Shown here piece by piece: positions 13,493 through 35,496 of a stretch of DNA of 35,496 nucleotides (its first letter is position 1; each line of letters starts with the position of its first letter). The notes beneath the pieces were generated by a model. It did no database searches and was not told the origin of the DNA. It worked only from the letters and a program-made list of their open reading frames with translations. The position numbers and the translations under genes are program-made. Origin of the DNA: a virus; the IMG/VR virus record IMGVR_UViG_3300028025_002553, positions 1 through 35,496 of that record, one strand, 5' to 3'.

Positions 13493-13709
13493 TTAAGAAT
13501 CTCATCCTAATGTAGTCGGGGATACCAGATGTGTGAGTTACATCACATTTACATAACCTATTTATACTGTATGGCTCTTTAAATTGTCTACTTATATACA
13601 AATAAATAAAAGTTTGAGTTCAATTTGCTATTCGTGTGTAACTCTGTGATACCGTAGGAAATGACAGAGGCGCTCACAAGGCGCCTTTTGCCAACTGAGA
13701 GGAGCAGAA
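13493..13709. promoter_or_regulatory. divergent control region between holin-like and transglycosylase genes
   Basis: This 217-base AT-rich gap has no gene. It holds a Crp-like palindrome at 13532-13547. A minus-strand promoter candidate has TAGACA (13590-13585) and TATAAA (13566-13561) with an 18-base spacer. A weaker plus-strand candidate has TTGAGT (13614-13619) and TGTAAC (13637-13642) at 17 bases. Just before the plus gene, AGGCGC/GCGCCT then TTTT forms a terminator-like hairpin, followed by GAGAGGAG as a strong ribosome binding site for ATG 13710. The hairpin position suggests attenuation, which is inference. Confidence 0.6.
13532..13547. promoter_or_regulatory. Crp/GlxR-type operator (TGTGA-N6-TCACA)
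   Basis: A perfect TGTGAGTTACATCACA palindrome. It has the same half-sites and spacing as the sites in the early cassettes near 30.5-34.9 kb and matches the consensus of actinobacterial cAMP-binding regulators. It lies just downstream of the minus-strand promoter candidate (near +7 to +22 of that transcript, a repressing position) and about 110 bases upstream of the plus-strand candidate start. It appears once here, without the TTGGCG box found in the early leaders. Confidence 0.65.
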
Positions 13710-14249
13710 ATGCTTAATATCAGAATCAACTTCCAAGTTGATCTAAAGAAAGTAGGAGCGGTATGGATGACAATGTTCTTAATGTTCTCCCATCTAGTGG
13801 TTCCACCAACGGCTGCGGCGCTAACTGTGCCTGCACCTGCGGAGAAGCCGATAACGGTGAGCCTGACCTACTTGAAGGTAACAACGACTAAAACAGCAGC
13901 CAAGGCCGCCTTGGCAAGTGACACCGTCAAATACTTTGACGCTGAAGCGCTCGCTTTCTTAACAGTTTACGCAAGTGACTGGCCTATGAAAGAGTGGAAG
14001 TGTCTCCGAGCCATCTGGGATCGAGAGAGCAACTTCAACCCTAAAGCAGAGAACAAGAGCTCTGGCGCATATGGAATTGCCCAGTTCATGCCATCTACTT
14101 GGGGTAACTACAAAGTAGAAAAGACAGCTGAAGCCAAGCTTCAGATTAAATACGGACTTCGCTATATCTTTAAGCGGTATGGCTCAGAAAACGATCCGCA
14201 TGGCGCATGCAACGCGTGGGCCTTCTGGCAAAAAAATAAGTGGTACTAA
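13710..14249 (+). CDS. secreted lytic transglycosylase (SLT-like / aggregation-promoting-factor type)
   Basis: A 179-residue protein. Residues ~16-37 form a Sec signal-like hydrophobic segment (GAVWMTMFLMFSHLVV) after basic residues, followed by AAA. The C-terminal ~85 residues match the transglycosylase domain common in actinobacterial secreted proteins: W-D-R-E-S-N-F (catalytic Glu), SSGAYGIAQFMPSTW, and an ending with GACNAWAFWQKNKWY. It should cleave peptidoglycan glycan chains outside the membrane. It is transcribed opposite to all virion genes nearby, has its own control region with a Crp-like site, and ends at a bidirectional terminator. It may be an endolysin exported by Sec or a host-derived wall-remodelling enzyme. 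Confidence 0.88.
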   Translation: MLNIRINFQVDLKKVGAVWMTMFLMFSHLVVPPTAAALTVPAPAEKPITVSLTYLKVTTTKTAAKAALASDTVKYFDAEALAFLTVYASDWPMKEWKCLRAIWDRESNFNPKAENKSSGAYGIAQFMPSTWGNYKVEKTAEAKLQIKYGLRYIFKRYGSENDPHGACNAWAFWQKNKWY

Positions 14250-22239: not shown

Positions 22240-22312
22240 CTGCCCTTCCTGGGATCGAACCAGGGACACCGCGATTAACAGTCGCGTGCTCTGCCTGCTG
22301 AGCTAAAGGGCA
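22240..22312 (-). tRNA. tRNA-Asn (anticodon GTT)
   Basis: Read on the minus strand: acceptor TGCCCTT/AAGGGCA (7 pairs), D-arm GCTC/GAGC, anticodon stem CGCGA/TCGCG around loop CTGTTAA (anticodon GTT), 5-base variable region, and T-arm CCTGG/CCAGG with TTCGATC. The discriminator base is G, as in Asn tRNAs. CCA is not encoded. All arms pair fully. It may compensate for AAC-rich virion genes. Confidence 0.95.
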
Positions 22313-24156: not shown

Positions 24157-24323
24157 TCATCATCCTTTGGGTTACGTAGTGGATAAGTAACAGCCCAAGC
24201 AAGTAATGTTCCTACGATTGCGTAGCCAACAACAGTCTTTGCACTGCCGTCCAAAACTACCCAAGCAATAAACATTCCAAGTAGCGTCCATAGTTGATCA
24301 ACCATGTCTCTTAATATTTTCAA
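24153..24323 (-). CDS. 56-residue two-TM membrane protein (TTG start)
   Basis: TTG 24323-24321 overlaps the stop of the large upstream gene (TTGA) and has AAGGAAG 2-4 bases before it; ATG 24305 further in is the alternative. The sequence has two hydrophobic stretches ([14 protein letters not shown] and [15 protein letters not shown]) and ends PLRNPKDDE. It is a good small-holin candidate next to the lipoprotein and CHAP genes. Confidence 0.65.
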
Positions 24324-26671
24324 GGCTTCCTTCTCCTAATTCCTCTTGAATCTCCAGAGGCTCCTCCGCCTCCAGAACCACTTCCTCCACCTCCACCAGA
24401 GTTTCCTCCAGTAGAAGTGCCCCCTGTACTTCCTGCCGTAGCAGCGCCAACAGCATTAATAGCAGCTCCAGCCGCAACAACGGCTGCAACTACCATCTCT
24501 GTTGCTTCTTCGCGTTCTTCGGGAGACATATCGGCACCAATACTTCCTAGTGCTTGTAGTGCTTCCCCTGGATCGCTAAATATTGCGCCAACTAATTCTG
24601 AAGGGTTCTCTAGTAAAACTAGAGCCGCAGCTACGTCTGCTGTAATTATAACTTCGTTACCGTTTTCATCCTGCCTAACCTCAACAGGAGTCTCTGCTGG
24701 TAGGTCTTGATATGCAATACCAGCATCTTGGATCTGCTCTTTAGTAAGAGTCTCACCAGGTGCTACTGATTCAATAAGTGCAGTTGCAACTAAATCTTTT
24801 TCAGCGGCAGTCAGTTTTCCGTCAGCGGATAGGGCATCAGATAACGCAGACACTTCTTCAGCGGTAACTTCGCCATCTGCGTTTAGCGCATCCATAACAG
24901 CATCAGCATCCGAAGCAGAAAGCTTTCCGTCAGATAGAACATCCTCTACAGCACTCGCAACCTCTTCTTCTGGTGTGCTAGGCTCTGATTCTTCAATAGG
25001 AGGTTCTAATGGTTCTGTGGACGGATTTTCTGGCTCTATTTCTGGTGACTCTGGTTCTGGTTCTGGTTCCACGGGTGTGGCAGGTTCCTGAGGCTCCTCG
25101 GGCGCTACGGGTGGCTCTTCGGGCTCTACCGGCTCTGGTAGGGGCTCTGTGGGTGGCTCTGGCTCTTCTATGGGTGGCTCAGTAGGCAATGGCTCAGGAT
25201 CAGGGATTGCGACAGGTGGCTCCTCAGGTTCTGGAGCGGGCTCTGGAGCAGGCTCGGGCTCAGGTAAAGGCTCTGGAGCAGGCTCAGGAGCAGGTTCTGG
25301 CTCAGGCGCAGGTTCAGGCGCAGGTTCTGGGGTTGGCTGTGGCGCAGGCTCAGGCTGTGGTGCAGGCTCTGGCTGAGGTACGGGTTCAGGTTGTGGTGCA
25401 GGCTGTGGAGCAGGATCAGGATTTGTGGGGACAGGGTCCACTGGTGGAGTTATAGGAGGTTCAGGTGATGGAGCTGGTTCTGGTGTTGGCTCTGGTGTTG
25501 GTTCCACTACTGGTGGGTCTACTGGTGTGGGTGTTGGATCGACAGGAACGGGAGTAGGTTCAGGTTGAGGCGTAGGATTTGGGACTGGAGTTGGCTCTGG
25601 TTCAGGTGTGGGTGTAGGCGTAGGTTCAGGCTCTGGTGTTGGTGTAGGAGTTGGTTCTGGCGCAGGTGGCGGAGTAGGCTCAACAACTGGTTCAGGAGTT
25701 AACTCAATAGGAGCTGTAACTTGAGTAACACCAGCTTGTTCAAGTGTTACAACAGTTCCATTCTGAAGACGTGCTCCAGTTCTTTCATTTCCAGCTAAAG
25801 GTCCATCTACAGAGTAAGTGTAAGAAACATTGCCGTCTGTAAGGATCTGACCAGTAATAACAATTTGAGTTGTCGCACCAGTCATTGTTCCGTATGGGCG
25901 ATAAATACCATCTACTTGAAATCCACCGTCACTTGTTCTAATAATGAAGTGCGTGTCAGGCATCTGCTGTGGTAGTACCCACCAGTCACGAGATTCAATC
26001 GAGATAGACGGAGTTGTTGGGTAATCCCAGTAAGTTCCATCTGCTCTACCAAATGTTATTACAGAGTTAGTTGTGGCGTATACGTCTGTATACTCAACAC
26101 CGTTAAATAAGACTGAAGTTGTCAGCGGGATTCTGTAAGACGTGTCGTCTCCGCCTGGGGTAACAGTCTCAACTACTACTGGAGCAGGTTCTGGAGAGGT
26201 TGCCACTAATGGAGATGTTGTTGCTGTTGGCTGTGTTTGGACTGGGGTATCTTGTGTCGTTGTTACAGTGGTATCAGCCGGAACGGAAGAAGGCTCAGGG
26301 CTTGGTGTCGGAGTTGGTTCGGGCGAGGACGAAGGCGCAGGCGTTACAGATTGATTTGGATCGGGTTGCGGAGAAGAATCGGAAGTGGGCGTCGGAGAAG
26401 GTGAAGGCTCTGATGCAGGAGCAACAGTCTCAACAGGAGTGGCCACGGGCTCAGGGCTGGAAGAAGTATCAGGACTCGCTACAGGAGTCGGAGTTGAATC
26501 GGGAGTCGGATCGGCAGCAGGCTGAACGGAATCGCTGGGTGCAGGAGTAACCTCATCTGCGTGTGCGGACATGCCAAGATTAAGTACTAAGAACAATGTT
26601 CCCGTACCTACTGCGTAGTGTAACTTTTTAAAATGCCGTCTTAGTATTGCGAATGGACGTGATGCATTCAG
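24320..26671 (-). CDS. large secreted Pro/Glu/Thr-rich protein with nidogen-like domain (probable CTG start)
   Basis: A ~783-residue protein. The usual first codon (TTG 26596) cuts the signal peptide. Reading 25 codons further gives basic residues ([12 protein letters not shown]), then a hydrophobic core ([18 protein letters not shown]) with an AHA cleavage site. This frame opens at CTG 26671, preceded by AGGGAG, with no stop or ATG between. Layout: Pro/Ser/Thr-rich region; beta domain about 165-325 ([35 protein letters not shown]) resembling NIDO-type folds; long P-E-P repeat; helical EF-hand-like repeats ([42 protein letters not shown]); hydrophobic Ala/Val segment and Gly-rich basic tail RGIRRRKP. 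The P-E-P repeat and wall-surface-like features suggest an envelope-spanning or surface protein. CTG start is an inference. Confidence 0.65.
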
Positions 26672-30305: not shown

Positions 30306-30449
30306 CTAATAAAATTTTACGCCACGCCGTTCTTGTTCAGCGATCTTGCGATCTTCTTTAAAGAGCTTCATTCGTTTAACCTCTAGAACCGAGGATGCAA
30401 TTATCTGCACAATCTGCAAGGCGGCCAATACAGCCAAGAGAGCGGTCAT
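30306..30449 (-). CDS. 47-residue membrane protein
   Basis: ATG 30449 to TAG 30308-30306. The N-terminal hydrophobic segment MTALLAVLAALQIVQIIASS is followed by a charged amphipathic helix (MKLFKEDRKIAEQERRGVKF). It is the first gene of the leftward small-gene run, and the short repeat at 30461-30480 is upstream. Confidence 0.6.
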   Translation of the reverse strand: MTALLAVLAALQIVQIIASSVLEVKRMKLFKEDRKIAEQERRGVKFY

Positions 30450-30460
30450 AGCGACAATTC

Positions 30461-30480
30461 TAGGCTACTGCACGACCAAT
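30461..30480 (-). repeat. 20-base repeat upstream of a leftward gene (copy 2)
   Basis: On the minus strand ATTGGTCGTGCAGTAGCCTA, 17 of 20 identical to copy 1. It sits 12 bases upstream of ATG 30449 and opposite the first early cassette. Confidence 0.6.
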
Positions 30481-30516
30481 TTAGGTGTTACCTGATTTTG
30501 TTACCTGGCCCCCCTT

Positions 30517-30667
30517 TGTGAGATTGGTCACACTTAACCCTGGGGGGGTCTGCTGGCGGAGATGTGACGCTTATCACATACAAATGTCATTGGCGAGCGT
30601 GACACGAGGCACTACCTTTCTCTTATCGGTAGCGAACGGCACCGAATTAACCGAAAAGGGGCAACAC
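30517..30667 (+). promoter_or_regulatory. early cassette leader 1 (two Crp-like sites, TTGGCG, 5' hairpin)
   Basis: Contains TGTGAGATTGGTCACA at 30517-30532 and TGTGACGCTTATCACA at 30563-30578. An 11-base gap leads to TTGGCG at 30590-30595. Seventeen bases later TACCTT (30613-30618) fits a -10 box. A stem TCGGT/ACCGA begins at 30626, close to the expected start of transcription, and GAAAAGGGGC precedes ATG 30668. This is the only leader with two palindromes. It lies in the divergent gap between leftward and rightward genes. Confidence 0.7.
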
Positions 30668-30841
30668 ATGACACGCAAGGACTACAACCTAATTGCAGAT
30701 GCGATTAAGACACAGGTCGCGCCACACAATGACAGCGACACAGTTTGGCAAGTAGCGAACGCTATCTCCGACTCTCTAGCAATGGACAACCCACGCTTCG
30801 ACTCTTTCCGCTTCATGCAGGCTTGTGGGTTAAACCAATGA
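30668..30841 (+). CDS. 57-residue early protein
   Basis: ATG 30668 is used because GGGGC is 4 bases upstream; a longer frame to 30485 would run through the regulatory leader. MTRKDYNLIADAIKTQVAPH then DTVWQVANAISDSLAMDNPR. A compact helical fold; similar small phage proteins beginning T-R-K-D-Y are common and of unknown function. Its stop overlaps the next start (ATGA). Confidence 0.7.
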   Translation: MTRKDYNLIADAIKTQVAPHNDSDTVWQVANAISDSLAMDNPRFDSFRFMQACGLNQ

Positions 30842-31023
30842 GGCTCACACCACGAGGTGAAATCGTATTCGCTTCTCTCTTATTCTCCGCGTTCGTCATG
30901 TTGGTGGGCGCAACCGCTGCGGGCATTAATTTCCTCGCAACACACGAACGCGTGACCATTGAGTCATCATGCGTTCAGACACCCGACGGACTCTCTTGTG
31001 ATTGGGAATGGGTACGCAAATGA
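30838..31023 (+). CDS. small single-TM early protein
   Basis: A 61-residue protein starting at ATG 30838 (ATGA overlap with the preceding gene). Residues 9-34 form a membrane segment (VFASLLFSAFVMLVGATAAG); the rest carries two Cys (SSCVQTPDGLSCDWEWV) that could be bridged outside the cytoplasm. No family recognised. Confidence 0.7.
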   Translation: MRLTPRGEIVFASLLFSAFVMLVGATAAGINFLATHERVTIESSCVQTPDGLSCDWEWVRK

Positions 31024-31163
31024 AATCACTACAGGAAAAACTAAACGCTGCAGCCAAGGCTTGCGAGCCAATTCTTTGGAACATACTCAATGACTCTAAG
31101 TGCGTTGAGTGCGACAAGATCCTCACCGAGGATGATGTCTACGGCCACGATTGCGAGGTGTGA
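31020..31163 (+). CDS. 47-residue zinc-site early protein
   Basis: ATG 31020 overlaps the previous stop (ATGA). It contains C-V-E-C (C28, C31) and H-D-C near the end (H43, C45), a plausible zinc knuckle. The stop is followed by a gene starting 2 bases later. Confidence 0.65.
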   Translation: MKSLQEKLNAAAKACEPILWNILNDSKCVECDKILTEDDVYGHDCEV

Positions 31164-31165
31164 TC

Positions 31166-31321
31166 GTGGCTAAGTACACATTCGAGATCGAGCAGACTAA
31201 TAAGTTCCTTGTAGTCATTGAGGCCGAGAATGCCGGGGCTGCGGTGAAAGAGTTCGACGAGTACATAGTGGATGACTTCGGTGATCCTGAGACAAGCGTT
31301 ATTAGTTGGTTTGTAAGATAG
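31166..31321 (+). CDS. 51-residue early protein (GTG start)
   Basis: GTG 31166 has GAGG 7 bases before it. MAKYTFEIEQTNKFLVVIEA then a helical acidic segment and VISWFVR. A beta-alpha-beta-like small fold; GTG 31160 is an alternative start. A strong terminator follows within 6 bases. Confidence 0.6.
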   Translation: MAKYTFEIEQTNKFLVVIEAENAGAAVKEFDEYIVDDFGDPETSVISWFVR

Positions 31322-31326
31322 CCAAG

Positions 31327-31359
31327 CGCCCTCCGCCCACGCGGGGGGCGTTTTGTTTT
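31327..31359 (+). terminator. terminator of cassette 1
   Basis: CGCCCTCCGC pairs with GCGGGGGGCG (10 pairs, one G-U) around CCAC, followed by TTTTGTTTT. Confidence 0.9.
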
Positions 31360-31369
31360 GCGCCAAATG

Positions 31370-31539
31370 TTTGTGTTGGTACCCGCCCTCCCTGTACCTA
31401 ATCCCTAAAGGGAAGGGTGGAGAGAGTTGCTTCAGCTTTTGTGACGCGTATCACAGCAAATGTCCTTGGCGAGTGGGGCAAGGCATGGGAGATTTATCTC
31501 ATCAAGCAAACGGGCTTGATAATCACGAAGGGCTGATAA
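31370..31539 (+). promoter_or_regulatory. early cassette leader 2
   Basis: In order: TTTGTGTTG at 31370-31378; an inverted repeat TCCCT/AGGGA; a GGAGAGAG run; TGTGACGCGTATCACA at 31440-31455; 10 bases; TTGGCG at 31466-31471. A stem ATCAAGC/GCTTGAT spans 31501-31520, and GAAGGGCTGA precedes ATG 31540. The -10 at the expected spot (GAGATT) is weak, as expected for an activator-dependent promoter. Confidence 0.75.
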
Positions 31540-32013
31540 ATGTCTAACGACATCACTAACGGCTTAGCGCATGAGGCTTGCGATACCTTAATTTCGCAAT
31601 ACTCCGCTAACGCCCCACTAGATACTAATCTAGTGGAAATTGTAGTAAAGGCAAGTAACGCAAACGCGAATTTCCGCGATTATGTCCTAGGCGCACCTGT
31701 CCTAGAATTCGGACACGAAAAGGCAATTCACTTTGTCACCGAGTTACTGCCACTTATGGCAGAGGCTGAGCGCGTACCTTTCTACGCTATCCTCGCAGGT
31801 TTCTATTACGAGACAGGCGATAACGAGTTGGCAACCGCCTCACTCCACACCGCACAAGCACTAAATCCTAATTACTCACTCGCAACACTACTAACCCGAG
31901 TTATGAACGCGGGTATGCCAGCCTCAATGCTGACCGCAATGCGTTACGAGTTGCACCCTAAAGTGACCGAGACTCTAGTTAGCGAAAGCGACACAGTTTT
32001 AGTCACCGCTTAA
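31540..32013 (+). CDS. early protein, helical repeat-like
   Basis: A 157-residue soluble protein alone in its cassette. It is helical throughout; a TPR-like helix pair is suggested by ETGDNELATASLHTAQALNP near residues 101-120. No domain can be named safely. GAAGGGCTGATAA is a strong ribosome binding region directly before the ATG. Confidence 0.65.
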   Translation: MSNDITNGLAHEACDTLISQYSANAPLDTNLVEIVVKASNANANFRDYVLGAPVLEFGHEKAIHFVTELLPLMAEAERVPFYAILAGFYYETGDNELATASLHTAQALNPNYSLATLLTRVMNAGMPASMLTAMRYELHPKVTETLVSESDTVLVTA

Positions 32014-32024
32014 ATTACAAGCAA

Positions 32025-32061
32025 GGCGCTCGCCCTTCGGGGTGGGCGCTTTGTTTTTTTT
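32025..32061 (+). terminator. terminator of cassette 2
   Basis: GGCGCTCGCCC pairs with GGGTGGGCGCT around TTCG, then a run of eight T after TTG. Very stable. Confidence 0.9.
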
Positions 32062-32105
32062 AGGGTATGCCAAAATACTCATTTTTCCCAATGCCTCTGC
32101 CAATG

Positions 32106-32263
32106 TTTGTGTTGGAGCTCCCACCCACCCTGATCTCCTATCCCTAAGGGATAAGTGGAGAGAGATGTGTGATGCAGCTCACAGCAAATGGTATTGGCGA
32201 ACGGGGGAGAAAATGGGAAGGTTCTCTTGTTAGGGCGAACGACCCTAACGAACGGGGCTGGAA
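32106..32263 (+). promoter_or_regulatory. early cassette leader 3
   Basis: TTTGTGTTG at 32106-32114; near-perfect inverted repeat TATCCCT/AGGGATA; GGAGAGAG; TGTGATGCAGCTCACA at 32168-32183; 10 bases; TTGGCG at 32194-32199. A stem GTTAGGG/CCCTAAC spans 32229-32249, and GGGGCTGG precedes ATG 32264. Confidence 0.75.
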
Positions 32264-32524
32264 ATGGATAAAGAAAAGATAAGTCGCATTGTGCGAGTAA
32301 TTGGTGAGCCAACCTCAACACCCGAGGACATGGCGTTTGTTCGTAATAACCTAGAGGACTTTCACACTTTCCTCTATGACATGGCAACAAATGAATTAGT
32401 CAAGGAAGGCGTATCTCCTGAGAAGGTGGAAATGCTAATCAACCCTCTTATAGGTATTGCAAAAATGTGGGGGGCTTCATCCTTCGCAGATTACCAAGTG
32501 CTGGCTGAGTTGGAAGGGGAATAA
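32264..32524 (+). CDS. early hypothetical protein
   Basis: An 86-residue acidic helical protein starting MDKEKISRIVRVIGEPTSTP. No known domain. It is separated from the next gene by one base and both share the cassette-3 promoter. Confidence 0.65.
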   Translation: MDKEKISRIVRVIGEPTSTPEDMAFVRNNLEDFHTFLYDMATNELVKEGVSPEKVEMLINPLIGIAKMWGASSFADYQVLAELEGE

Positions 32525-32525
32525 A

Positions 32526-32993
32526 ATGGGGCTAGACATGTATCTCCATGCAAAGAAGTATGTCGGTGGTTGGTCACACATGCAGGACACGAACGAGTAC
32601 AGGACACTTCGCAACCTGTTCCCTGATGTTCCTGTTAGTGATGACTCTCCCTCTGCTGAGGTTCAGTTCACAGTTGGATACTGGCGCAAAGCGAACGCAA
32701 TTCATAACTGGTTCGTGCAAAATGTCCAAGGTGGCGAGGATGAGTGCAAGCCTCACTATGTCGAACGTGGGCAGTTAATTCAGCTACGAGACGATTGCAA
32801 GCTGGAGATGTTGGTCAAGACTATGGCGCTGGCAGATCATGCTGGAGTTGTAGAGCCTACCTCTGGTTTCTTCTTCGGTAATGATGAAAGAGACGAGTGG
32901 TATTACAGAAGTTTAGAGGACACTATCAAGATAATTGACAAGTGTTTAGAGATGACTACCGATTGGAGTTTCGAGTACCAATCTAGTTGGTAA
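32526..32993 (+). CDS. conserved-type phage early protein (MGLDMYL family)
   Basis: A 155-residue protein starting at ATG 32526, right after the previous stop; the longer frame from 32457 would overlap that gene. The opening MGLDMYLHAKKYVGGW, the core VGYWRKANAIHNWFVQNVQG, and ERGQLIQLRDDCKLEMLVKT match a widespread family of small phage proteins of unknown activity. Glu, His and Cys residues in the core could be a metal site. This is the most recognisable protein of the early region. Confidence 0.75.
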   Translation: MGLDMYLHAKKYVGGWSHMQDTNEYRTLRNLFPDVPVSDDSPSAEVQFTVGYWRKANAIHNWFVQNVQGGEDECKPHYVERGQLIQLRDDCKLEMLVKTMALADHAGVVEPTSGFFFGNDERDEWYYRSLEDTIKIIDKCLEMTTDWSFEYQSSW

Positions 32994-33003
32994 TCGGATA
33001 CAG

Positions 33004-33044
33004 AAAGCGCCTTGCCTCTCCGTTCAGGGGCAGGGCGCTTTTTT
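33004..33044 (+). terminator. terminator of cassette 3
   Basis: AAGCGCC pairs with GGCGCTT, the inner TGCC with GGCA, and a six-T run follows the 3' arm. Confidence 0.88.
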
Positions 33045-33062
33045 GTGCGCTCGCGCAAATTG

Positions 33063-33223
33063 TTTGTGTTGAGACCCACCCTCCCTGTCTCTTACCTTAA
33101 AAGGGAGGTAGTAGAGAGACGTGTGACGTACATCACTACAAATGGTGTTGGCGAGTGTGGCGGGGTGCCCTAATGTTCGTGTTGTTAGAGAAGCACAGTA
33201 TCTAATGAATTGGGGCTGAATAA
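33063..33223 (+). promoter_or_regulatory. early cassette leader 4
   Basis: TTTGTGTTG at 33063-33071; inverted repeat CCTT/AAGG; AGAGAGA; TGTGACGTACATCACT at 33122-33137 (last base off consensus); 10 bases; TTGGCG at 33148-33153; TAATGT at 33171-33176 after 17 bases, a good -10. A stem GTTAGA/TCTAAT spans 33184-33206, and TGGGGCTGAATAA precedes ATG 33224. Confidence 0.78.
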
Positions 33224-33475
33224 ATGGCAGATGATTTTTGGAAGCGGTACTACGGTTCATTCGTAGGCGCTCGCATCCTATCATTCGACGGTATGAATAC
33301 CGAGGATGATTTCGGTGACGGGTTCCCTGAGTTTACCGTTCAATTCGCTAATGGTGAGATTGGAGTTATCTCCGTATCACAAGACCCTGAAGGTAACGGC
33401 GGTGGGTTCCTATTCGGACTCGCGTTACCTGCTGACCATCCACAAGGTGGAGAAGTGAGGACACTCAATGCTTAA
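33224..33475 (+). CDS. early hypothetical protein
   Basis: An 83-residue beta-rich protein (FWKRYYGSFVGARILSFDGM near the start, GGGFLFGLALPADHPQGGE near the end). No known domain, no membrane segment. It overlaps the next gene by 8 bases. Confidence 0.65.
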   Translation: MADDFWKRYYGSFVGARILSFDGMNTEDDFGDGFPEFTVQFANGEIGVISVSQDPEGNGGGFLFGLALPADHPQGGEVRTLNA

Positions 33476-33641
33476 CAAGACTGATAACACCACGCTGTTC
33501 CCTGACTGGGAAAGTTCATGGTCACGCCTTGAACACGAGGAAGCGACTGGTTACACCATAAATGGTGCTGACTGGAAGCAGATTGTCGAGGACTTAGACA
33601 CGGCAGTCATGCAAGTGTTGCAAGACCACGGGGTGGCGTAA
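33468..33641 (+). CDS. 57-residue early protein
   Basis: ATG 33468 lies 8 bases before the previous stop, and its own TAA shares one base with the next start (TAATG). FPDWESSWSRLEHEEATGYT then a helix with KQIVEDLDTAVMQVLQDHG. Unknown function. Confidence 0.6.
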   Translation: MLNKTDNTTLFPDWESSWSRLEHEEATGYTINGADWKQIVEDLDTAVMQVLQDHGVA

Positions 33642-33808
33642 TGGAGCCAAAGGTTGGTGACATCTACACCACGCATAAGAATCACGTCACGGGAATTGTC
33701 GTAGAGACTGTTCCTAATCGCACGGGCTCGATCCGAGTTCGACTAATCACCACGTCTCTAGAGACACGGTGGACGACATGGGTTCCTGAGTTTTCTCATC
33801 AGCCCTGA
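33641..33808 (+). CDS. 55-residue early protein
   Basis: ATG 33641 (TAATG overlap) to TGA 33806-33808. It reads VGDIYTTHKNHVTGIVVETV then a basic strand IRVRLITTS. The G-D-x-Y...G-x-V-V-E pattern resembles small SH3-like barrels common in phage early genes. Confidence 0.6.
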   Translation: MEPKVGDIYTTHKNHVTGIVVETVPNRTGSIRVRLITTSLETRWTTWVPEFSHQP

Positions 33809-33820
33809 TGAAAAAGGTGC

Positions 33821-33851
33821 TGGGTCACACTATAAAATGACCCACATTTTT
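33821..33851 (+). terminator. terminator of cassette 4
   Basis: TGGGTCA pairs with TGACCCA (7 pairs) around a 10-base loop, then CATTTTT. The loop is larger than in the other cassettes but the U-run is good. Confidence 0.75.
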
Positions 33852-33967
33852 AGCTAGCCCGAGTCAAAGCTGTTTTTGATTTGGTTTGCAGCCAAAGCGT
33901 GTTCATGATCCGGTTCCTGGGGAGACACAGCTGCTCGGCCTAGCCCACCTCTCCGGGGCCGCGTTTG

Positions 33968-34130
33968 TTTGTGTTGGCCCACCCACCCCGTTTAAGGGAG
34001 TTGTTGTAAGAGAGAAGCTCCACCAGGTGTGACATACATCACAGCAAATGCTATTGGTGAGAGAGGCAAGAGATGAGAAGGTACTCCTATCTAACAAGGC
34101 GTTAGATGATAAATAGTGAAGGGCTGACAA
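33968..34130 (+). promoter_or_regulatory. early cassette leader 5
   Basis: TTTGTGTTG at 33968-33976; CCC/GGG repeat around GTTTAA; AAGAGAGAAG; TGTGACATACATCACA at 34028-34043; 10 bases; TTGGTG at 34054-34059. A stem ATCTAAC/GTTAGAT spans 34089-34107, and GAAGGGCTGACAA precedes GTG 34131. This is the only leader with TTGGTG in place of TTGGCG. Confidence 0.75.
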
Positions 34131-34691
34131 GTGGGTTACTACATTGACCTAACAAGTGCAGAATGGGAAATCCCAGAAACTGCCGAAGTACTACAAGCAT
34201 TAAAAGAATCCGTGACAAAGTACCACGCTATCAAGCGAGGCGGTTCATCTAACGGTGAATCTTGGTTCTCATGGATGAGTGACGAGGACATCCTCAAAGC
34301 AGAAAAAGCAATCACTATCTTTAACGATTTAGGGTTTGAGACAAGCGAAACCGACAACGGTTTTACTTTAGAATCCTACAACAACAAAACAGGTCAAGAA
34401 GATGTTTTCTTGGCGGTAGTTGCTCCGTTCTGCACAGATGGTTCATACATTGAATTCCGTGGCGAAGATGGTGCGGAATGGCAATACTCAGTCCGTGATG
34501 GCAAACTCCATTACGCAGAAGTACGCAAATCATTTGATGAGCCAGTTCCATACCTATACGCTCACTATGATGTTCAGTTTGACGAAGACGGAAAAATGAA
34601 CACTCAAACTACGCTGATTGACCTCAACGCTGAGAATCCTTGCGAGGGGTTGGTTAATCGCAGAGATGCGAAGAAGGCGCTAAATAAGTAA
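34131..34691 (+). CDS. early hypothetical protein (GTG start)
   Basis: A 186-residue acidic protein, sole gene of its cassette. The start sits right behind GAAGGGCTGA. Opening GYYIDLTSAEWEIPETAEVL; later NDLGFETSETDNGFTLESYN and CTDGSYIEFRGEDGAEWQYS. It looks like a family of small alpha/beta phage proteins of unknown function. Confidence 0.7.
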   Translation: MGYYIDLTSAEWEIPETAEVLQALKESVTKYHAIKRGGSSNGESWFSWMSDEDILKAEKAITIFNDLGFETSETDNGFTLESYNNKTGQEDVFLAVVAPFCTDGSYIEFRGEDGAEWQYSVRDGKLHYAEVRKSFDEPVPYLYAHYDVQFDEDGKMNTQTTLIDLNAENPCEGLVNRRDAKKALNK

Positions 34692-34693
34692 TA

Positions 34694-34741
34694 GGCTCGG
34701 GCTCCAGTTGCACACCAGCGGCTGGAGCTCGATCCGTTTTA
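34694..34741 (+). terminator. terminator of cassette 5
   Basis: A 14-position stem with one mismatch built on GCTCCAG (34701-34707) and CTGGAGC (34722-34728), extended by TCGG/TCGA-type pairs, followed by GTTTTAT. Confidence 0.75.
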
Positions 34742-34778
34742 TAGGGTGCCAAATGAATATTTCCCAAAGCCTAAATTG

Positions 34779-34945
34779 TTTGTGTTGACAGCCCTCCCAC
34801 CCTGTCTAACCCTTTCAGGGAATCGGTAAGAGAGAGAGATGACCAGTCATGTGATGCATGTCACAGCAAAAGCTCTTGGCGAGAGTGGCACGCTCACCTA
34901 TGTTTAGGGATGTAAGCAACCGCTTACCTAAACGAAGGGCTGAAT
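34779..34945 (+). promoter_or_regulatory. early cassette leader 6
   Basis: TTTGTGTTG at 34779-34787; CCCT/AGGG repeat; AGAGAGAGA; TGTGATGCATGTCACA at 34850-34865; 10 bases; TTGGCG at 34876-34881; TATGTT at 34899-34904 after 17 bases. A stem GTAAGC/GCTTAC spans 34912-34927 and can extend outwards through GTTTAG/CTAAAC. GAAGGGCTGA precedes ATG 34946. Confidence 0.78.
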
Positions 34946-35191
34946 ATGCGACCTCTAAACGAGATTGCTCAGGAAATTGAATGGGAGTGCTCAGACAAGG
35001 CGTGGTACGTCTACGCTGAAGCATACGTCACTCCAATGAAATCGCTTAAACTAATGAGCGATTACTTCTATGCAGACAGCGCTGATTCTATTGTTCGATA
35101 CGCGCTCGCTAACCTCACTTCATGGCGCGGAGAGAATGCTCGCCGTATCAAGGCGGAGTTAAACGGGATGCTCAAGGGGGTGAGCGTATGA
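34946..35191 (+). CDS. early hypothetical protein
   Basis: An 81-residue protein starting MRPLNEIAQEIEWECSDKAW, helical with several Trp/Tyr. Its stop overlaps the next start (ATGA). No domain recognised. Confidence 0.65.
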   Translation: MRPLNEIAQEIEWECSDKAWYVYAEAYVTPMKSLKLMSDYFYADSADSIVRYALANLTSWRGENARRIKAELNGMLKGVSV

Positions 35192-35487
35192 GCGAATGGG
35201 TATCAGCTGGGCGCGTAGGCGTGGACAGCGGCCAGATCATGGTCATTGATCCGTGCTACATAACTAAGGACTTTGATAACCATGACGGATCACAGAAGTG
35301 GGATCCAGCTGCTTACAGAGGCCAGCTCAACTATCAAGGCGTATCAGCTGTCACTATAGCTGAAGGATTCGGCCAAGCTAACGAGGCCGTGGCCACCAGC
35401 TCGGGATACGGTGATGGTATCTATCCTGTTGAGGTTCGGCTCAATGAGGATAACCGTGTAGTGGAGCTGCGGATCAGCTTCGAATAA
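35188..35487 (+). CDS. DUF4241-like early protein
   Basis: A 99-residue protein from ATG 35188 (overlaps previous stop; the longer frame from 35122 is rejected). SAGRVGVDSGQIMVIDPCYI is the hallmark V-D-S-G-x-L/I-x-I-x-D-P-C-Y of a DUF4241-like family found in phages and bacteria, followed by VEVRLNEDNRVVELRISFE. Function unknown. The window ends 9 bases after its stop, so later genes of the cassette are not seen. Confidence 0.75.
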   Translation: MSEWVSAGRVGVDSGQIMVIDPCYITKDFDNHDGSQKWDPAAYRGQLNYQGVSAVTIAEGFGQANEAVATSSGYGDGIYPVEVRLNEDNRVVELRISFE

Positions 35488-35496
35488 TTCCAGGCG

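Follow-up and report, generated by a model that had tools for sequence, protein, structure and literature searches.

Lytic programmes are usually ascribed to phage-coded regulators. Which protein would read the TGTGA-N6-TCACA palindromes that stand before six short early cassettes is the question raised by the window, that is, the whole 35,496-nucleotide stretch of the viral record IMGVR_UViG_3300028025_002553. Judged by consensus and position in the DNA, the palindrome is probably the operator of a host Crp/GlxR-type dimer that activates weak early promoters. If these promoters need a host cAMP regulator, infection would start slowly or pause depending on the cell's carbon or energy status. 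The actinobacterial marker WhiB is found in 25 of 27 phage records, and the hosts probably belong to the actinobacteria, perhaps to freshwater lineages; to our knowledge, little is known about the control of infection in such hosts.

Palindromes and predicted promoters of the early region

Scanning the genome with the palindrome, a check proposed with the original prediction, revealed strong enrichment: the window holds seven exact copies (Table 1), against 0.043 expected from dinucleotide shuffles of the whole window. Six of the seven lie in the early region of about 5 kb (30440–35496; 0.017 expected from dinucleotide shuffles). Six leaders with a palindrome, one ending in TCACT, had been reported, and they stand; the starts listed for them do not, as 31370 and its counterparts are the starts of an upstream TTTGTGTTG element, and the palindromes lie 59–71 bases downstream of the listed positions. 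Likewise, 30517 had been taken as the site of the first-cassette leader; the palindrome that corresponds to those of the other leaders is at 30563, which makes 30517 an extra copy.

The window sites match the half-sites and spacing of the published GlxR (PMC7999487) and mycobacterial Crp (PMC4218801) target. Across 72 sites, the N6 centre is pyrimidine–purine in 64% and TA in 37.5%; within the window, TA occurs only at 33122, 34028 and 13532. A symmetric preference and a central TA in the spacer have been reported for GlxR sites.

In the six window leaders, the palindrome is followed by 10–11 bp, TTGGYG, 17 bp and [TG]AnnnT; the gap to TTGGCG or TTGGTG measures 11 bases in the first leader and 10 in each of the other five, as originally described. 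TTGGCG/TTGGTG is a plausible −35 element of a predicted promoter and, with a −10 element at fixed spacing, would make the palindrome a positioned upstream site of the activator type. The original prediction had overlooked this possible role of the motif. Aligned leaders have TT at positions 27–28 (18/18), A at position 51 (15/18) and T at position 55 (18/18). When 72 distinct exact sites were read in 144 orientations, TAnnnT followed the site 17 times at offset 34 and eight times at offset 33; the mean over offsets was 2.0. Leaders L126, L129, L132 and L134 have other −35 and spacer sequences, and their TAnnnT lies one base further downstream.

With +1 set at the seventh base after the −10 element, 15 of the 19 leaders that resemble those of the window have a stem-loop beginning within two bases of the predicted start, and these 5′ stem-loops comprise about a dozen different stem sequences. 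In cassettes 2 and 5 the predicted start is the base of the stem itself (31501, ATCAAGC/GCTTGAT; 34089, ATCTAAC/GTTAGAT). The −10 element starts with G in three of the six window leaders, and a sigma-70 consensus scan calls none of these window promoters. The promoter assignment therefore rests on conserved spacing and stem-loop register; the silent scan would fit dependence on an activator, with the promoters remaining predicted. Since leaders within one phage share ancestry, the conserved spacing may partly reflect descent.

Relative to the predicted +1, the palindrome is centred at −53.5 or −54.5. The classical E. coli CRP positions are −41.5 and −61.5, and the difference of −53.5 from these counts against a Crp activator. 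The predicted centre does fall within the activating range of M. tuberculosis CRP, whose sites cluster at about −60 to −40 (PMC4117774), and the Crp site of M. smegmatis ahpC is at −81.5 (PMC4218801).

The additional palindrome at 30517 probably belongs to a divergent minus-strand promoter, because TAAATT stands at the same offset (33) on that strand; its predicted +1, at about 30471, is upstream of a short minus-strand ORF. On the plus strand, the cassette 1 ORF (57 aa) has its ATG at 30668. The hairpin-plus-T terminators expected to end cassettes 1–5 were recovered, three by a terminator scan and two partly by reading the sequence.

Table 1. Sites, predicted promoters, upstream elements and terminators in the window.
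Feature	Position	Strand	Detail
Solitary exact Crp-type palindrome	13532..13547	.	Between divergent genes; adjoins plus-strand transglycosylase-like gene 13710-14249
Predicted divergent promoter	30478..30506	-	AGGTAA (30506-30501) -17- TAAATT (30483-30478)
Additional Crp-type palindrome	30517..30532	-	Minus-strand reading; TAAATT at offset 33
Crp-type palindrome, cassette 1	30563..30578	+	TGTGACGCTTATCACA; centre -54.5
Predicted promoter, cassette 1	30590..30618	+	TTGGCG -17- TACCTT; +1 30625
Predicted 5′ leader, cassette 1	30625..30670	+	Stem-loop from +2; SD-like AAAAGGGGC
Terminator, cassette 1	31324..31358	+	Terminator scan
Upstream element, cassette 2	31370..31426	+	TTTGTGTTG, stem 1 GGTAC/GTACC around CCGCCCTCCCT, hairpin, GAGAGAG
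Crp-type palindrome, cassette 2	31440..31455	+	
Predicted promoter, cassette 2	31466..31494	+	TTGGCG -17- GAGATT
Cassette 2 gene	31540..32013	+	DUF4192 domain (PF13830)
Terminator, cassette 2	32019..32062	+	Terminator scan
Upstream element, cassette 3	32106..32164	+	
Crp-type palindrome, cassette 3	32168..32183	+	
Predicted promoter, cassette 3	32194..32222	+	TTGGCG -17- GAAGGT; +1 32229
Terminator, cassette 3	33004..33045	+	Partial in scan (loop too long); read from sequence
Upstream element, cassette 4	33063..33118	+	Stem 1 GAGAC/GTCTC
Crp-type palindrome, cassette 4	33122..33137	+	TCACT variant, TGTGACGTACATCACT
Predicted promoter, cassette 4	33148..33176	+	TTGGCG -17- TAATGT; +1 33183
Terminator, cassette 4	33821..33851	+	Scan reported minus strand; symmetric stem, CATTTTT on plus strand
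Upstream element, cassette 5	33968..34014	+	Short form
Crp-type palindrome, cassette 5	34028..34043	+	
Predicted promoter, cassette 5	34054..34082	+	TTGGTG -17- GAAGGT
Terminator, cassette 5	34697..34742	+	Terminator scan
Upstream element, cassette 6	34779..34838	+	Stem 1 GACAG/CTGTC
Crp-type palindrome, cassette 6	34850..34865	+	
Predicted promoter, cassette 6	34876..34904	+	TTGGCG -17- TATGTT; +1 34911

The regulator that would bind the site

In the proposed mechanism, a host dimer of the Crp/GlxR type (cAMP receptor protein family) would bind the palindrome upstream of each cassette, about 53.5 bp ahead of the predicted start, a location from which regulators of this kind usually activate. 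Once bound, the dimer would recruit RNA polymerase to the weak sigma-70-type promoter that each cassette would have downstream of the site (TTGGCG, 17 bp, [TG]AnnnT), and transcription would start at the base of the 5′ stem-loop and yield a short cassette transcript closed by its own terminator. The second site, at 30517, would serve the divergent promoter, so that a single host signal could turn on both arms. Of the original proposal that the phage borrows a host regulator, the part concerning a Crp/GlxR-type operator at the early promoters is well supported by the consensus, the position and the recurrence of the site in related phages. We infer that the binder is host Crp/GlxR acting as an activator, with cAMP or the carbon/energy state as its presumed input.

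No Crp-family gene was found across 38 phage records, which extends to related phages the earlier statement that the window encodes no such regulator. The HTH_Crp_2 domain was found in 0 of 37 related records and the cNMP-binding domain in 0 of 27 records including the window, with control genomes positive and with contigs of 96–98 kb among those searched. Many contigs are possibly incomplete, so a phage-coded regulator could be overlooked.

Alternatively, early expression or immunity could be set by a phage-coded, non-Crp DNA-binding protein that reads TGTGA-N6-TCACA; it would be matched in other phages of the group by differently specific regulators with their own operators. One operator type dominates each array in most sampled phages while orthologous cassette genes stand under differing types, as co-evolving regulators would give, and 6/6 sampled TGTGA-type phages, against 0/5 others, share three related early proteins (e.g. 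G030 7855). However, the tested proteins that co-occur with TGTGA leaders have no Pfam domain and nothing regulator-like; the one helix-turn-helix candidate seen (G030 38599-, a weak Pfam match) is also present in G031, a phage lacking TGTGA sites; and the sites are the exact Crp consensus at usual Crp-site positions. A phage-coded reader of the palindrome is therefore unlikely.

The upstream folded element

Five of the six window leaders carry, upstream of the site, a covarying folded element (TTTGTGTTG...CCCACCCTCCC...GAGAGAG) whose stems, like the 5′ stem-loops, show compensatory changes. It is also present in 43/43 scanned leaders with a TGTGA site, in a scan that itself required the element. 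A search of a genome collection gave nine scattered matches, one each in unrelated bacteria, which were taken as chance and provided no host lead. The element might be a promoter itself or a transcribed structured leader. In the former case, the main role of the Crp-type site could be to repress or block transcription from the upstream promoter, and mycobacterial CRP does repress from sites near the start (PMC4117774). Against this, anything from 48 to >100 bases separates the element and the site, whereas the distance from the site to the downstream −10 element is fixed at 33 or 34; the leader of cassette 1 has site and promoter but no TTTGTGTTG element; and no clear −10 element was seen inside the upstream element. 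Promoter activity of this element, with the palindrome as a downstream road-block, was the first idea considered and was demoted because fixed spacing was found for the downstream promoter only; we regard it as improbable.

An RNA hairpin or riboswitch-like element in the transcribed leader was rejected as highly improbable: a 5-bp stem with a six-base loop could form, and other leader parts do have compensatory stems, but none of the 22 one-mismatch sites and neither of the two mirrored double changes is compensatory, which favours a protein site in DNA. In addition, no covariation was detected within the N6 spacer when stem extension was tested, an Rfam search gave only a tRNA and no match to the palindrome, and the palindrome precedes the predicted promoter. 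Mycobacteriophage arrays contain start-associated sequences and, in cluster A, stoperators, which are asymmetric sites of the phage repressor. Short regulatory repeats beside small early genes are common to those arrays and the present one, but the sites here are symmetric, Crp-type and confined to one position before the promoter, and no repressor was found; a stoperator array was rejected.

Operator exchange and comparison with known systems

In related viruses, orthologous cassette genes stand behind other operators, namely CGTTATC repeats or CGACACGCC, which contains the GACAC core of WhiA; single leaders have a LexA-like site or DnaA boxes. The operator is thus swappable, which suggests that viruses of this group may exchange the host signal to which they respond. 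More tentatively, the early array may be a socket for host signals, with one operator type per phage before most cassette promoters and another in relatives, such that a phage that changed its operators as a set would place its entire early regulon under another host state. The alternative operators amount to an experiment by nature that could tell which of the host's signals merit sensing, and the predicted starts, with the operator swap between relatives, make the proposed need for a host cAMP regulator directly testable.

Use of a host regulator by phages is known in kind. Phages of Alphaproteobacteria have promoters controlled by host CtrA, a 'lytic deferment' for which binding and expression were demonstrated experimentally, and the CtrA-site signature arose in several lineages (PMC9437464). 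Both cases concern tailed phages with host global-regulator sites clustered in phage promoters, and the same pattern, with sites concentrated in promoter regions and the regulator gene not found in phage records, was observed here. CtrA is a cell-cycle factor, whereas in the present viruses each early cassette is predicted to have a single Crp/GlxR-type site at a constant distance from its promoter. Host promoters activated by GlxR/Crp, such as C. glutamicum ldhA (PMC7999487), M. smegmatis ahpC (PMC4218801) and those in the M. tuberculosis CRP map (PMC4117774), similarly have TGTGA-N6-TCACA upstream of the start, with activation predicted here; unlike these, the present sites are viral, arrayed and tied to a 5′ stem-loop and the upstream element. 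Phage GIL01 reportedly also reads cell state through a host regulator at its promoters (PMC4551915); there, however, LexA mediates SOS repression in a temperate phage, while the prediction here is of activation from a Crp-type site within an array of early cassettes.

By terminase, the nearest isolated phages are Streptomyces phage BRock and its relatives, at about 54% identity. The first 40 kb of BRock, a region with small rightward genes, contains no exact palindrome, and its three sites with one mismatch are all located past 19 kb; TTTGTGTTG is absent from its first 13 kb. The solitary palindrome at 13532 has a counterpart with similar flanks in three other records (G001, G026 and G016).

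Predicted operator and promoter of the early cassettes

The exact palindrome TGTGA-N6-TCACA is present at seven sites in the window, compared with 0.043 expected per window from dinucleotide shuffles. As originally noted, the palindrome is followed after exactly 10 bases by TTGGCG or TTGGTG (11 bases in the first leader), and terminators proposed for five cassettes are present after cassettes 1–5, two of them partly read by eye. The site at 30517 had been assigned to cassette 1; the counterpart site of this cassette is instead that at 30563.

Counted from the palindrome start, all 18 window-type leaders have TT at positions 27–28 and T at position 55, and 15 of them have A at position 51. The resulting pattern TTnnnn -17- [TG]AnnnT is kept although the spacer is mostly variable, and TTGGCG is therefore plausibly read as the −35 element of a predicted promoter. 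A second leader type (loci L126/L129, L132 and L134) has a different −35 and spacer, and keeps TAnnnT one base further on. TAnnnT was counted at each offset from all 72 distinct exact palindromes, read in either orientation; its maxima are at 34 (17 occurrences) and 33 (8), against a mean of 2.0 per offset. For 15 of 19 leaders, a predicted +1 set seven bases after the −10 falls within 2 bases of the stem-loop start, and the stems have many different sequences. These and the other leader counts are not independent events, since leaders within one phage are related. Only a few members of the second leader type have this stem-loop register. The 5′ leaders in the window span 35–43 bases from the predicted +1, and the site centre lies at −53.5 relative to it (−54.5 in cassette 1).

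Coordinates of leader elements and other features
Feature	Record	Position (strand)
Exact TGTGA-N6-TCACA	Window	13532, 30517, 30563, 31440, 32168, 34028, 34850
Palindrome with TCACT half-site	Window	33122
Module A	Window	31370–31426, 32106–32164, 33063–33118, 33968–34014, 34779–34838
Module A	L111–L155	
Module A, then terminator-like hairpin	L113; L116; L123; L138; L148	734–780; 2581–2629; 1804–1850; 5770–5816; 6625–6673
LexA-like (CGAAC-N4-GTTCG), DnaA-box or TAGCCAACT repeats in operator position	L125; L130; L141	7536+; 1241−; 2623− and 4396−
Tandem palindromes	L004, L005, L118, L154	
Tandem palindromes	L104 (G010)	869–932
GGCTACTG, then GACCAAT	Window	~30285, ~30463
tRNA gene (Rfam)	Window	22240–22312 (−)
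758-aa ORF	Window	24320–26596 (−)

Leader architecture and module A

Viral contigs scanned for the upstream element gave 47 stretches, which together with the window hold 96 distinct leaders. Four parts follow in order: module A, the operator, the promoter, and a stem-loop with the Shine-Dalgarno-like AAGGGGCTGA ahead of the start codon. The distance from module A to the operator is variable; that from operator to promoter is constant. Module A comprises TTTGTGTTG, a stem that encloses CCCACCCTCCC, in most cases a further hairpin, and then GAGAGAG. Approximately 96 copies were found in related viruses, and the first window leader lacks it. The stem has at least 4 exact pairs in 39 of 47 long-arm leaders (arm-swapped mean, 9), in which 22 different stem sequences occur. 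Judged by its sequences, module A is a conserved folded element with a covarying stem; it has no match in Rfam. The palindrome half-sites reveal no compensatory change, in contrast to the module A and 5′ stem-loop stems, and the palindrome spacer prefers a central pyrimidine–purine step. At five loci, module A is directly followed by a terminator-like hairpin; the end of a convergent gene seems to come next, as if these copies closed an array.

Candidate regulator and proposed operator exchange

The window (35.5-kb IMG/VR virus contig, 46.7% GC) carries a tailed-phage structural block (terminase, portal, major head protein, tail fibre) on its minus strand and, on the plus strand from ~30.5 kb, the array of short cassettes, early as inferred from gene layout. 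For the 758-aa minus-strand ORF, PHROGs gave no match and Pfam no convincing one. The terminase of database relative L006 is identical to the window's. An actinobacterial host is likely, because 25 of the 27 phage records examined carry WhiB (all except the window fragment itself and G040) and the closest isolates by terminase are Streptomyces phages (~54% identity). Among 14 control genomes, the WhiB search was positive only in Corynebacterium glutamicum. A freshwater habitat is a guess from the kind of collection.

Searches of 37 related records for an HTH_Crp_2 domain and of 27 records, the window among them, for a cNMP-binding domain found neither, with control genomes positive in both searches; the regulator of the palindrome is therefore probably the host's own. 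As to its role, deduced like all function here from sequence, the weak core promoters and the fixed spacing favour activation. The C. glutamicum GlxR target is TGTGA-N6-TCACA, and GlxR activates ldhA (PMC7999487). M. tuberculosis CRP sites cluster at −60 to −40 and +1 to +20 of transcription starts, the former cluster being linked to activation (PMC4117774), and Crp activates M. smegmatis ahpC from −81.5 (PMC4218801). Host CtrA acting on promoters of Alphaproteobacteria phages is the nearest precedent (PMC9437464); GIL01 under host LexA is another (PMC4551915). None of the papers found, within incomplete literature coverage, describes an array of Crp/GlxR sites at the early promoters of a phage.

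Other phages that share module A have different motifs where the palindrome would stand: CGTTATC repeats (12 loci), CGACACGCC/GGCGTGTCG (9 loci), DnaA boxes (4 loci) or, at single loci, either a LexA-like site or TAGCCAACT; the LexA-like and DnaA labels follow the consensus sequences for these proteins. Orthologous first genes stand behind different operator types: the family of cassette 2 gene 31540 (DUF4192, PF13830) follows TGTGA, CGTTATC and CGACACGCC leaders. Operator type within one phage is largely but not strictly uniform; phage record G037 mixes TGTGA leaders with other types, and some leaders combine two motif types. GACAC in the relatives' operator coincides with the published WhiA core, GACAC (PMC3781837), which is no more than a resemblance.

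Divergent region and solitary sites

When the minus strand is read, TAAATT lies at offset 33 from the 30517 palindrome, which suggests a promoter of divergent orientation; its predicted start is at ~30471, ahead of a short ORF on that strand. One intergenic region would then hold a Crp-type site for each of the two arms. The GGCTACTG and GACCAAT motifs occur in succession twice in this region, and GGCTACTG recurs in relatives close to TGTCGACA sequences.

The solitary palindrome at 13532 lies between divergent genes, adjoining a transglycosylase-like gene, and is also found in G001, G026 and G016. It does not have the early-promoter spacing, as TATACT lies 15 bases downstream in the window and G026, and 22 in G016. 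A special leader type at five loci contains several tandem Crp-type palindromes a few bases apart, in some cases followed by a long GAGA-rich stretch that contains TGTCGACA and GGCTACTG motifs; it is possibly an origin or a divergent control region.
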